64,000 nucleotides of DNA, from positions 62,001-126,000 of the forward strand of contig DATNPK010000111.1 of the NCBI GenBank assembly GCA_036703275.1, in the 5' to 3' direction. This stretch comes from Coleofasciculaceae cyanobacterium (lineage in GTDB: Bacteria > Cyanobacteriota > Cyanobacteriia > Cyanobacteriales > Xenococcaceae). Both the position numbers and the translations under genes were made by a program. Below, one piece after another: positions 16,023-39,173 of the stretch (positions are counted from its first letter, which is position 1; every line of letters begins with the position of its first letter). Below the pieces are notes generated by a model, which worked only from the letters and a program-made list of their open reading frames with translations, was not told where the DNA came from and searched no databases.

Positions 16023-16368
16023 TCAATCGGCTAAGGCAAAGATTTGTGCTGCTGTTAGGTCAAGTTCTGGAAACTGTGGCTATCGCACTTGCTCGGGATC
16101 CGAAAAGCTACCTACTTCAGTATAAGTATTGGCAACAAGTTCTAATACCAATACTGTTTGAGCATCAGGGTCAATAATTCAATATTCAGGAATACCGCAA
16201 TCTTGATACTGATATCGCTTGGCAATGTAATCGCGTAGCGAAGCCATGCCGTTATGCGGAGCGGTATCCGCGTCGTCTTTTAGGGCAGGCTTATCGCCTT
16301 GTAATTACACCAGGACTGACAACTTCTTGACAGAAGAGCGGAATAAGACCCGCAACCAAAACGTGATG
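16023..16368 (-). pseudogene. Uma2-family endonuclease remnant
   Basis: Read on the minus strand, the fragments CQEVVSPGVITR, DYIAKRYQYQDCGIPEY, IIDPDAQTVLVLELV and PQFPELDLTAAQIFAL match the C-terminal half of Uma2 (DUF820) proteins, which have a PD-(D/E)XK-like fold. The frame is broken by a GC-rich repeat at about 16231-16298 between the first two fragments. A TGA replaces the Trp of the usual EYWI motif and a TAG follows GSFSDPEQVR. The 5' half of the gene is not recognisable. It cannot encode an intact protein. Uma2 genes are commonly multicopy and decaying in cyanobacteria. Confidence 0.75.
16231..16298. repeat. dispersed palindromic repeat inside Uma2 remnant
   Basis: The block contains CGCGTAGCGAAGCCATGCCG (16232-16251), identical to the copy in the dynamin gene at 38298-38317. 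It goes on with GCGGAGCGGTATCCGCGTCG and ends in a segment resembling GGCTTATCGC. Its ends are inverted, so it folds into a long hairpin. Confidence 0.7.
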
Positions 16369-35214: not shown

Positions 35215-35490
35215 CTAAGATATGCTTTGACGAATATCATCTAAAGAGTTGTTATTTTGCAGTACATTGTCATTTTTGATTTCTTCTGGTTCATCAGGAC
35301 AAAACTCTAAGATTACTCTCATTCTCACCTTGCCTTTTTTCCATTCTCCAGACTGAGGTGTTAAAACTTCAGCTTCAACACCTTGATGCCAAGTACCATA
35401 ATGAGGTGGAGTTCCTAAACCAGCTTGTTTTAATTTTTCTGACAACTCATTAAGCACTAAATTTATAAAGAATCTGTTTAAACTTTCCAT
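35215..35490 (-). CDS. KGK-domain protein, copy 4 (start uncertain, N-terminus may extend to about 35589)
   Basis: The ATG-started frame has 91 residues with the KGK core EWKKGKVRMRVILEFCPDEPEE and the shared C-terminal tail NSLDDIRQSIS. Upstream of this ATG the same frame reads on without a stop for about 30 residues (for example SAVVSFNNGTTFRVSKF). This matches the N-terminal part of the other three copies (DVISLDSDKW, DEVISIYNKDD). No ATG, GTG or TTG precedes that segment before the TAG that ends the previous gene. Either a rare start (ATT or CTG near 35586) is used, or the gene lost its start codon and now makes a short form. Confidence 0.6.
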   Translation of the reverse strand: MESLNRFFINLVLNELSEKLKQAGLGTPPHYGTWHQGVEAEVLTPQSGEWKKGKVRMRVILEFCPDEPEEIKNDNVLQNNNSLDDIRQSIS

Positions 35491-35628
35491 AAACTTGCTG
35501 ACTCTAAATGTTGTCCCATTATTAAAAGAAACAACTGCACTAGAGTTTTCATGCTCTAACTGTTGAAAATTTATTTCTGAGTTCAGATTAATAATTAAGA
35601 TAAATTTGTGTAAATAGAAATAGTAGTT

Positions 35629-35916
35629 CTATTGATTTTCTTGTCTAATATCATCCAGAATAGATTCTGATCGATCGGGAACAAACTGTAAACAGATTTT
35701 GATTTTACCTTTTTGCCAGTTTTGATTGGGAGATAACATTTTACAAGGTACTCCTTTATCAATCCATTTTTCTTTTTTGTTGCGATCTATATAATCTCCT
35801 AAGCGGTCTAAAAATTCTTCTGCTTTATATGTATGATGATTGAGTAAAACATTATCATCTTTATTATAAATTGAAATTACTTCATCGCCATTAATAAATT
35901 TATTTCTTTCTTCCAT
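35629..35916 (-). CDS. KGK-domain protein, copy 3
   Basis: This is a 95-residue complete KGK-domain protein. The N-terminal GDEVISIYNKDDNVLLNHHT is followed by a helix, then WIDKGVPCKMLSPNQNW, the name-giving QKGKIKICLQFVPD and the tail ILDDIRQ. The KGK domain (PF08872) is a cyanobacterial family of unknown function. A GGGAG Shine-Dalgarno lies 8 bases before the ATG and overlaps the old stop codon of copy 2 (35930-35932). The stop codon is in the same reading frame as the extended copy 4. Confidence 0.8.
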   Translation of the reverse strand: MEERNKFINGDEVISIYNKDDNVLLNHHTYKAEEFLDRLGDYIDRNKKEKWIDKGVPCKMLSPNQNWQKGKIKICLQFVPDRSESILDDIRQENQ

Positions 35917-35929
35917 TATTAACTGCTCC

Positions 35930-36262
35930 CTAGTTTGTAGTATCTATTTGTTTACGGATGTCATCCAAAGAATTCGTGTTTTTATTATTTTCAACTGCAT
36001 CAGGTTAAAACTGAATTACGAATTTAATCTTTCTTTTTTGCCAACCTTGATATTCACCGTTTTGTCTTAATACCTCACAGTCAATATGCTGTTCAAAAAT
36101 CTCTTTATTACTTACGCTTGTATTGCTCTCATCAACATAAGTTTTGTAATCATTACATAGTTGCTCAACTCGTAATGTATCACCGCAGATAAACCTGCCT
36201 TCATCATGTTTAAATACAGAAATAACATCATCACGGTTTAAAATTTCTAAATCTTTACTCAT
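35930..36262 (-). pseudogene. KGK-domain gene, copy 2, truncated by in-frame TAA
   Basis: The present open frame (36005-36262, 85 residues) covers the KGK core through GWQKRKIKFVIQF and then meets TAA at 36005-36007. In the same frame beyond the stop, the sequence continues PDAVENNKNTNSLDDIRKQ and reaches TAG at 35930-35932. Its relatives read QF-V-PDRSE and EF-C-PDEPE at this point, so the TAA replaces one codon of a previously intact gene. The KGK motif itself is also changed to QKRKIK. A GAGG Shine-Dalgarno precedes the ATG. The truncated protein may still fold. Confidence 0.7.
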
Positions 36263-36283
36263 AGTTAACTTACCTCACTATTA

Positions 36284-36673
36284 TTAATAATTATCTCGAT
36301 CTAATTCTTGACGAACATCATCAAGAGGCGATTTTTCTTCAGCTTCATCGGGAATAAATTCTAAGGTAACGTTTATTTTTATTTTCCCTTTTTGCCACCC
36401 TTTAGAACCAGCTCTTAATATTTCACATTCTTCTCCTTCATGAAACCAGAGTTTAGTATTTCCCAAACCAGAAATAGAAGAAATATAATTGATAATTGAA
36501 GTTAATCCATTAGACTGATTAAAGGATTGTTCAATAACATCTTTTATTTTTTTTACACTAATCCATTTATCAGAGTCTAGGGAAATAACATCTTTTGAAT
36601 CACATTGATTTAAATGTTCATTAGCGTTTACTTGTAAGTCATATGTTATTTCGTATTGATGAGGTTTTGCCAT
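36284..36673 (-). CDS. KGK-domain protein, copy 1
   Basis: This is the longest of four tandem copies, with 129 residues. An extra N-terminal arm (MAKPHQYEITYDLQVNANEH) precedes the shared start DSKDVISLDSDKWISV. Then come LWFHEGEECEILRAGSKGW, the core QKGKIKINVTLEFIPDEAEE, and the tail SPLDDVRQELDRD. It follows the dynamin-like gene by 23 bases, and the other copies follow it at similar short distances, which indicates one transcript. Its function is unknown. Confidence 0.82.
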   Translation of the reverse strand: MAKPHQYEITYDLQVNANEHLNQCDSKDVISLDSDKWISVKKIKDVIEQSFNQSNGLTSIINYISSISGLGNTKLWFHEGEECEILRAGSKGWQKGKIKINVTLEFIPDEAEEKSPLDDVRQELDRDNY

Positions 36674-36696: not shown

Positions 36697-38313
36697 CTAT
36701 ATATCTGTCGTAGCAGTTACCGAATCGGAATGACTGTGACTTCCGTTGTTGTTAGAAGTTTCGGCTTTGGATTCAATCTCGATCGCTATTTCTCGATTAA
36801 TAACGGGTAATTGATGTTGAGATAATTGCAGCGATCGCAAGCAATCATTTAACCCATTTACCGCCTGGTTATACTGCTTTATTTCTTGTTCTACCTCTAG
36901 CTGTAATTTTTGGTTGTGGGCAATTTTAGTAATAGCTTCTTGTTCTAAAGTTTGTTCTAAAAATGCTCTGGCTTGAGGATAATACTGTAAAATTTTATCT
37001 GCTTGTTGTTGTGCCATCGGCAGCAAATGTGTCTTGATTGTTTGGTTAATTGTCTGACGGAAATTACGGCGAATTGTCGTTGAAACTTTTGGTTCAAAAT
37101 CTAACTTTAATAGTTGACGGATAGCAGGTTCAGCTTCTACCATGCTGGCGCAGTCATATCCTTGAGAAGTTTGCTGTAGCGTCTGACGAAATTGATAGAT
37201 TGAAAATGTTCCTTCATCGTAGAAGCGGGGGCTTTCCCTAACGTATCGATCGCATTCTGTTTTGGCTTCACTAATCAAAGCATGAATTAACTTGGCTTCT
37301 AATTCATCAATCTGTTCTAAAATACCAGTGTCTTCACCCAGTAAGCGATCTAATTGACGATAATATTCTTGTTGTTTAAAGCGATCGCACAGACGCTGAC
37401 AAAAGTTTTTCACCAAAACTTCTGATGCTTCAACTAATGTCACCTCTAACTCATTAGCTAGGTGATACAAAGCCTCTACCAAGACAGCAATTAAAGGTGC
37501 AGTTGCATTACGGGGATGAGATAAAGTAGCGCGACTATAGGCATCCTGTACGGAAAAAGTTTGTAGCAGTTCATCAAGATGGCTTACCATCTGCGCTTTA
37601 AGTTTTTGGAAGTCTGATTCAAATTCAGAATCTTGATTATTTACTACCGAATTAACTTCTTGTTCTAAATGCTGCGAGAATTCTTTGCCTATTGTCTGTA
37701 ACTTCTGATTGAGTAGGGTCAACTCCTGAGTTTTCATTGCCTCAATCTCTTGGGGTTGATTAGTCAACTCTTGTAACTGCTTGAGGTAATGCTGTTTGAG
37801 ATCGCTACAGATAGGCTTGAGATCTTCAGCCAAGTTGGCAAATAGCTGAGGGCGTTTTTCCTGGGTTAGATAGCGGGTAATAGCACTACGAAATTCTTCT
37901 ATCCCACTATCAGCAATTAACTGTTCGATCAACGGCGTACCAAATTCACTTAGAATGCGAGTATAGTTTTCATTGGGTGTCTCGTAGCTATGAACTGATA
38001 CTCTAAAGCTAGTGCGAGTAAGCTTACCACCAGTACAGTATTTATTAAATTCACTCACAAACTGGGGCGTTTCTTCTTCACCACCAACTAATTTAACGCT
38101 GTCGGCAAATACGGAATCTAAACCAAAACGATCGCTACTACTGGTAGACTTAACCTGACTACCATAAAATCCTAATAAACCACTGGTTTTATATACTCGC
38201 TGACTATCTTTAAACTCAGTTTGAATTAGCCGATCCAATAGTTTACTTAATTGTCCGCCGTACCAAGTCTGATCGATGCGGTTGAAAACATAAAACACGC
38301 GTAGCGAAGCCAT
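36697..38313 (-). CDS. dynamin-like GTPase, C-terminal fragment
   Basis: The frame has 538 codons starting at an ATG that lies inside the inserted repeat. From VFYVFNRIDQTWYGGQL onward the sequence is the continuation of the GTPase domain and contains its G4 motif (NRID). The remainder is long and helical with coiled-coil-like stretches, as in dynamin stalks, and no clear membrane segment. It lacks G1-G3, which are on the upstream fragment, so alone it cannot bind GTP. Before the insertion the two parts formed one protein of about 820 residues. The first gene of the KGK array is 23 bases downstream. Confidence 0.7.
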   Translation of the reverse strand: MASLRVFYVFNRIDQTWYGGQLSKLLDRLIQTEFKDSQRVYKTSGLLGFYGSQVKSTSSSDRFGLDSVFADSVKLVGGEEETPQFVSEFNKYCTGGKLTRTSFRVSVHSYETPNENYTRILSEFGTPLIEQLIADSGIEEFRSAITRYLTQEKRPQLFANLAEDLKPICSDLKQHYLKQLQELTNQPQEIEAMKTQELTLLNQKLQTIGKEFSQHLEQEVNSVVNNQDSEFESDFQKLKAQMVSHLDELLQTFSVQDAYSRATLSHPRNATAPLIAVLVEALYHLANELEVTLVEASEVLVKNFCQRLCDRFKQQEYYRQLDRLLGEDTGILEQIDELEAKLIHALISEAKTECDRYVRESPRFYDEGTFSIYQFRQTLQQTSQGYDCASMVEAEPAIRQLLKLDFEPKVSTTIRRNFRQTINQTIKTHLLPMAQQQADKILQYYPQARAFLEQTLEQEAITKIAHNQKLQLEVEQEIKQYNQAVNGLNDCLRSLQLSQHQLPVINREIAIEIESKAETSNNNGSHSHSDSVTATTDI

Positions 38314-39173
38314 GCCGTAGGCTTATCGCGTATGCCCATGTGGGACTTCATCTTTTCTAGCAACTCGGTTTCTTCGGAAGTTATTTCTCCAGCCGAAGCT
38401 GCTTTAAGCACACAAATCACCGCCGAAGTATCGGGATGTTCGATTTTACTGTAGGTAAGTTCGGCATCTTTTTTAACAGGTGCATCAATACCTGGCATAT
38501 CAACCAGTACATTACCATCCTGTAGAAGGGGATGATGACAGTAATATTGAACCCTAGTTAGTACGGCACTATTACTACCCCGTCGGGCATAAGTAGCTGC
38601 TTGGGATAGATTAGAGAAATTAAATTCCTCCATTGAATAAGTATTATTTTTATTAGCATCGAGGCGATCGCGATTAGCTTCAAATCCCTGTAATAGCAAC
38701 GCCAAAGCATGAGCCTTTTTTGCCCGATCAGACTTACTCGCGCCACCCTCTTGTTCGATGATTGCCGCGCAGGCTTGATGAAGCAGATCGATGATTTGTG
38801 CTTGAGTAATATCATCGGCTGATAATCCTAAATGCTTACATAAGCTAGCAGCTTGTTGCTTAATCTCTGCTTCACTCAGGAAAGTTAGAACCACTCTTTC
38901 GGCTTCTGGTTCGGCATATTCAATGTAGCATTCTGTTCCTGTAGCGTGTCCTTCCGCACTGTAAAGCAATTCCCGTTCTAATAGTGCATTAATCAACATC
39001 GATTTTCCTGCACTAAACGCGCCTGCAAAAACTATTTCAAACTTTGGGGCGATCGCTTTGGCTAAAGATGCTTCTGCAACTCTAATCTGTTGATTTATAT
39101 TCGATTTTGGTACTAAATCTAAAATTGCGTTGACGTTATTTGACAACTCAGAACATTGATGAGGAAGGAGCAT
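38247..39173 (-). CDS. dynamin-like GTPase, N-terminal fragment
   Basis: The frame has 308 codons with the P-loop G1 motif FAGAFSAGKSMLINALL (residues 49-65), a probable G2 Thr in HATGTECYIEY, and G3 in LVDMPGID (about 225). Homology runs to EKMKSHMGIR. The frame then passes through an inserted repeat and ends in 25 unrelated residues (KPTAWLRYACFMFSTAS...). G4 is in the other frame. Dynamin-like proteins of bacteria remodel or tether membranes. Here the gene is probably inactivated, or the product is made only by frameshifting or as two chains. It is the first gene of a minus-strand unit with four KGK genes. Confidence 0.75.
   Translation of the reverse strand: MLLPHQCSELSNNVNAILDLVPKSNINQQIRVAEASLAKAIAPKFEIVFAGAFSAGKSMLINALLERELLYSAEGHATGTECYIEYAEPEAERVVLTFLSEAEIKQQAASLCKHLGLSADDITQAQIIDLLHQACAAIIEQEGGASKSDRAKKAHALALLLQGFEANRDRLDANKNNTYSMEEFNFSNLSQAATYARRGSNSAVLTRVQYYCHHPLLQDGNVLVDMPGIDAPVKKDAELTYSKIEHPDTSAVICVLKAASAGEITSEETELLEKMKSHMGIRDKPTAWLRYACFMFSTASIRLGTADN
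38297..38331. repeat. palindromic repeat inserted in the dynamin-like gene
   Basis: CGCGTAGCGAAGCCATGCCG at 38298-38317 is identical to 16232-16251, and ATCGCG/CGCG ends flank it. Between the homologous codons on either side (CGC at 38330-38328 and GTG at 38298-38296) there are 29 extra bases, not a multiple of three. The minus strand of the repeat contains GGCATGGCTTCG, whose ATG starts the downstream frame. Confidence 0.78.

Follow-up and report, generated by a model that had tools for sequence, protein, structure and literature searches.

The window, a 64,000-nucleotide stretch of one contig of a Coleofasciculaceae cyanobacterium (GCA_036703275.1, contig DATNPK010000111.1), comes from a draft genome of 5.62 Mb in 116 contigs (G000). 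On its minus strand lies a gene that its sequence identifies as the orthologue of SynDLP (Slr0869), a membrane-remodelling, dynamin-like GTPase of Synechocystis. The initial annotation had described the GTPase domain of this gene as divided between two overlapping frames, and this description holds (Table 1). When compared with proteins of solved structure, the two open reading frames (ORFs) proved to be consecutive parts of SynDLP, corresponding to residues 6–290 and 290–793, which abut at the split; together the matches span the GTPase domain and the stalk. The G motifs do not lie in one open frame. Instead, the translation of the upstream ORF contains AGAFSAGKS (G1) and DMPGID (G3) and that of the downstream ORF contains NRID (G4), as was first reported, placing the break between G3 and G4. 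A Pfam search matched Dynamin_N (PF00350) to the upstream ORF and no family to the downstream ORF. The final 25 residues of the upstream ORF are out of the original frame and lead to a stop codon at 38247–38249. The closest named relatives of the upstream half were Myxosarcina, Pleurocapsales and Xenococcus records. Downstream of the gene, four KGK-type ORFs follow in a row (35215–36673), three of them above the Pfam cut-off; according to a passage of PMC10104851, the KGK clade of cyanobacterial dynamin-like proteins is named after such a downstream KGK gene.

Table 1. Features of the divided gene, of the inserted repeat and of its second copy (positions count from the first base of the window)
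Feature	Position	Strand	Basis
Second HIP1-embedded copy: GCG + TAGCGAAGCCATGCCGT (16236–16252) + nested 34-base piece (16253–16286) + AGGCTT + ATCGC	16233–16297	+	
Three more KGK-type ORFs (35215–35490, 35629–35916, 36005–36262)	35215–36262	-	Pfam; 36005–36262 below cut-off
KGK-domain gene directly downstream of the predicted SynDLP orthologue	36284–36673	-	PF08872, E = 1.6e-24
Downstream fragment of the predicted SynDLP orthologue (G4 and rest), 538 aa from the ATG within the repeat	36697–38313	-	ORF list; SynDLP residues 290–793, E = 5.5e-206
Upstream fragment of the predicted SynDLP orthologue (G1–G3), 308 aa	38247–39173	-	ORF list; PF00350, E = 1.2e-17; SynDLP residues 6–290
GCG, left part of the HIP1 site GCGATCGC broken by the insert	38299–38301	.	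29 of 73 distinct relative loci with GCGATCGC at the site
Inserted repeat TAGCGAAGCCATGCCGTAGGCTT, 23 bases, SDR5-like; frameshifts the minus-strand gene	38302–38324	+	Orthologous site lacks it in relatives; family dispersed across the genus
ATG brought by the repeat, in the downstream frame	38311–38313	-	ORF list and codon listing
ATCGC, right part of the HIP1 site broken by the insert	38325–38329	.	DNA alignment with relatives

Exactly between the two homologous parts, as had been claimed, lie extra bases. Their number had been put at about 29; the insert proper is 23 bases, and its neighbours, GCG and ATCGC, are the two halves of a site for HIP1, a common DNA word, so that the insert sits between bases 3 and 4 of GCGATCGC. 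Comparison of the insert ends with the flanks revealed no target duplication. The length is not a multiple of three, in agreement with the initial annotation, and the insert therefore shifts the reading frame; the in-frame ATG that had been assigned to the repeat is also present. The reported second occurrence of the repeat was borne out by a 20-mer, CGCGTAGCGAAGCCATGCCG, that is exact at 16232–16251 and 38298–38317 (0.00 expected from 100 shuffles). This second copy is itself interrupted by a nested 34-base insertion and sits in an apparently decayed Uma2-type gene, for which the Uma2 match is weak (E = 0.11, below the cut-off).

The repeat had further been called palindromic, which is true of it only to the extent of a 5-bp stem (AAGCC/GGCTT). 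A single copy folds no better than shuffled sequences (z = -0.42 on one strand and -0.15 on the other) and no inverted repeat of at least 8 bases was found in 38200–38420, which led us to reject a strong palindrome. Across 23 distinct cores the five stem pairs are kept in 17, 21, 23, 21 and 20, and the changes among these cores are wobbles or breaks, none of them compensatory.

The uninterrupted gene in relatives

Matches to the gene were found in 42 genomes besides its own, 29 of which supplied loci. We examined 80 relative loci (L006–L085), 29 from the genome-set search and 51 from a second search, in two of which, L047 and L085, the match is confined to the upstream half. In all 78 loci that hold both junction ends, the halves continue in one frame with no extra codons, and none is naturally split at this point. 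The comparison with intact homologues that the initial annotation had proposed thus gives good support to its view of a GTPase domain divided by the insertion of a small repeat, and we rejected an ancestrally split gene on the same count. The 13 genomes that matched and supplied no loci include three (G036, G043 and G047) in which the gene matches are split or contain stops, either true or derived from sequencing. Frame changes of the same uncertain origin are present elsewhere in the SynDLP-type gene of L013 and L024, near codons 205–208 and 75–81.

Five loci represent the same contigs from two collections, and leaving these out along with L047 and L085 gives 73 distinct loci, all of which span the site in the DNA alignment. 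Relative to the window, 60 of them lack exactly 23 bases. The remaining 13 differ by -28 (five loci), -24 (four), -12 (two), -25 (one) and 0 (one), which we ascribe to the placing of gaps where DNA identity is low, since no extra codons appear in the protein alignments. Of the 73, 29 carry an intact HIP1 at this position, including the six same-genus genomes that hold the gene (G002, G004, G007, G009, G011 and G012).

Apart from the insertion, the gene appears undamaged. Relative to the closest relative, L035, dN/dS was 0.074 over 282 upstream codons and 0.101 over 356 downstream codons, at which point the match on the L035 contig ends, and both values are in the range of other pairs. The 817 codons of the two halves contain no stops, where approximately 27–34 would be expected under free drift over half the pairwise dS (about 0.22–0.29). 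Polarised changes were few in number: 17 nonsynonymous and 20 synonymous fell on the window lineage and 8 and 6 on that of L035. The nonsynonymous ratio is thus no higher on the window lineage, though the larger number of changes assigned to it in all (37 versus 14, with L035 reaching over just 356 downstream codons) counts against the reading that we favour. Either the insertion is young, it would seem, or the pieces are still under selection. Since both halves are otherwise undamaged, we infer a recent insertion, although purifying selection on both halves would also be expected if two separate chains still worked.

Loss of the gene is plausible, given that the downstream chain has no match in six of 12 same-genus genomes (two of the six being only 81–82% complete) and that the Synechocystis SynDLP gene appears non-essential under standard growth in the account given in part of PMC10104851. 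A Dynamin_N profile search of the window's own genome matched 22 stretches, of which many are likely to be P-loop GTPases of other kinds, and neither identified nor ruled out replacement by a paralogue.

Spread of the repeat and other genes that it enters

Allowing up to three mismatches, we found the 23-base core at 32 places in nine of 13 genus genomes, the window's own included, while the backward-read control gave 0 matches. Of 30 genus places that were fetched, 17 have exact GCG and ATCGC flanks, another two, L137 (own genome) and L146, stand in HIP1 as variants of 24 bases, and 11 lie outside the exact HIP1 frame, being off by at least one base or in another context. CATG is present within the repeat in 27 of the 30 copies read. 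More broadly, the core was found in 32 of 291 sampled genomes of the class and in 20 of 130 genera, with a single control match (in G109); among 28 loci read from this sample, six are 25-base inserts in HIP1 and one (L179) is a 24-base insert. Thirty-two plasmid records also match the core. The match is exact over 31 bases in a plasmid record of Stanieria cyanosphaera PCC 7437. Seven other plasmid records were read: two Nostoc sp. C057 plasmids and one Halotia plasmid carry 25–26-base versions in HIP1, the copy on a Calothrix plasmid has a right HIP1 half that is one base off, and three copies lie outside HIP1.

One genome, G331, has 248 matches (approximately 250 copies; L192–L221) to a close variant of the core, mostly in a TCTA...TACGC context, and none of the 38 copies read lies in HIP1. 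We dropped these copies as material for statistics on account of this different repeat context. Together with the 11 of 30 genus places that lack an exact HIP1 frame, they indicate that the core is also present in other repeats.

Besides the site in the SynDLP-type gene, three others form filled and empty pairs of exactly 23 bases at HIP1, in the own genome, in G012 and in G005. The own-genome copy (contig C67; L003 1135–1165, one mismatch) lies, as judged by eye, close to where a coding frame starts, and G002 and G004 have GCGATCGC in its place, without the 23 bases. In G012 (L127 1039–1904) a core with one mismatch splits an ABC-transporter ATPase within its SGGQKQRVAIARAL stretch, and in G005 (L142 1267–2099) a core with two mismatches splits a short-chain dehydrogenase, whose Pfam match breaks off at profile position 170 and is taken up again by the following ORF, likewise at 170. 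For each of these two genes, 13 matching loci were fetched; every one is shorter by exactly 23 bases, and 11 have HIP1 there. Each set includes one locus from the own genome and the ABC set may include paralogues. By reading, further copies were placed in G004 within a gene for a LuxR-type regulator and in G001 between repeats of the RTX type.

The 24-base copy in G005 (L146 1497–1528) is in frame within an AraC-type regulator gene. The HTH_18 match of this gene has 87 residues for 79 profile positions, and the eight extra residues are those expected from a 24-base insert, which appears to lengthen the DNA-binding domain of the predicted regulator by that number.

Across the genus and family genomes, when the copy itself is left out, an open frame of at least 150 codons surrounds five of 26 HIP1-embedded copies (up to one HIP1 mismatch), as compared with 121 of 170 native HIP1 sites (Fisher p = 6e-7; L131 left out), a control that is biased upward by 28 loci fetched for their genes.

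Consequences for the divided gene

We consider it highly probable that a small dispersed repeat of the SDR5 type, 23 bases long and targeted to HIP1, inserted recently between bases 3 and 4 of GCGATCGC in this SynDLP-type gene, with a null allele as the inferred effect. The resulting frameshift falls between G3 and G4, so that the upstream ORF would run on for 25 codons before it ends, while the downstream ORF would have no P-loop. The most likely reading is that a dispensable gene has recently been turned into a null allele. The initial annotation had left inactivation, expression as two chains and rescue by frameshifting side by side. Inactivation is the likeliest of these effects and fits best, there is no positive evidence for two chains, and frameshifting is unlikely.

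If the repeat supplied the start of a C-terminal chain that paired with the N-terminal chain as a split GTPase, then the in-frame ATG within the repeat, the openness of both ORFs and the low dN/dS in both halves would all be accounted for. However, CATG belongs to the repeat in most genus copies, and the frame of the ATG here would thus be a matter of luck; by eye, no Shine-Dalgarno-like run is present in the 27 bases before it; and the upstream stop lies approximately 60 bases beyond the ATG, meaning that reinitiation would need to go backwards. Moreover, the break falls within the nucleotide-binding fold and leaves each piece without motifs needed for GTP binding, and none of the 78 relative loci with both junction ends is split at this site. 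We regard two working chains as improbable. Restoration of some full-length protein by -1 frameshifting or transcriptional slippage is very improbable: the downstream frame is indeed -1 relative to the upstream frame and the two overlap, yet within the overlap neither a zero-frame X XXY YYZ heptamer nor a homopolymer of at least five bases is present, and the 91 bases around it fold only modestly better than shuffles (z = -1.33). It was the lack of a slippery heptamer that led us to drop programmed frameshifting. An error of assembly or sequencing might be suspected in a draft of this many contigs, but the inserted letters are exactly those of a dispersed family, they stand at the word which that family targets, and parallel cases exist at three other places. 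We dropped sequencing error on these grounds and give an artefact of either kind almost no weight.

Alternatively, inactivation might be temporary, as exact excision would re-create both HIP1 and the full frame and would allow a population to switch between broken and whole genes. The absence of a target duplication means that such excision would be scarless, the gene is otherwise undamaged, and passages of PMC4390886, along with a title cited there, connect HIP1 with excision and site-specific recombination. Against this, the window is one assembled sequence in which no mixed site was seen, and the literature searched, from which Elhai et al. 2008 stood apart, contained no report that such a repeat is excised. 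A reversible insertion is therefore quite improbable. Were it true, broken and whole copies of the SynDLP gene could coexist in a population, as could those of the ABC ATPase and the dehydrogenase in the sister genomes, and HIP1 words would be docking sites for some of the smallest known mobile DNA.

The significance of the locus lies in the four clean filled and empty pairs from closely related genomes, which pin down the insertion points exactly and demonstrate that repeats of this sort disrupt coding sequences. Having no gene of its own, the 23-base repeat might have moved by way of cutting at HIP1, as a published suggestion has it. The strains that supply these pairs are material in which to seek the machinery of movement and any reversal.

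Comparison with known systems

The host gene resembles the KGK-clade dynamin-like protein SynDLP of Synechocystis PCC 6803 (PDB 7zw6) in matching it over nearly its whole length and in having KGK genes downstream. Unlike SynDLP, it is broken between G3 and G4, at the point that corresponds to residue 290.

The insert resembles SDR5 in entering HIP1 between bases 3 and 4, here and at the three further places arranged as GCG, 23 nt and ATCGC, with HIP1 empty in relatives. SDR5 of Nostoc punctiforme (Elhai et al. 2008, Genome Res. 18:1484) is reported to belong to a size class of 21–27 nt with recent mobility, to be found exclusively in HIP1 and to have a conserved hairpin supported by compensatory changes. 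Passages of PMC4390886 state that Nostoc SDR5 inserts exactly between nucleotides 3 and 4 of HIP1, the role of which they describe as not settled. The core is shared, moreover, with the two Nostoc sp. C057 plasmids and the Halotia plasmid. In contrast to SDR5, the insert here is 23 bases long and resides in kin of the Pleurocapsales, and its core, as matched by a loose 23-base pattern that may mix in other families, also occurs outside HIP1, in the genus as well as in G331. As the exclusivity in HIP1 does not hold for this core, we call the repeat SDR5-like and not SDR5 itself; it would be of a kind already known in related bacteria, judging from the description of SDR5. REPINs and REP elements are likewise short, dispersed, hairpin-type repeats that are thought to be mobile, as outlined in part of PMC3116915, whereas the target of the repeat described here is HIP1.
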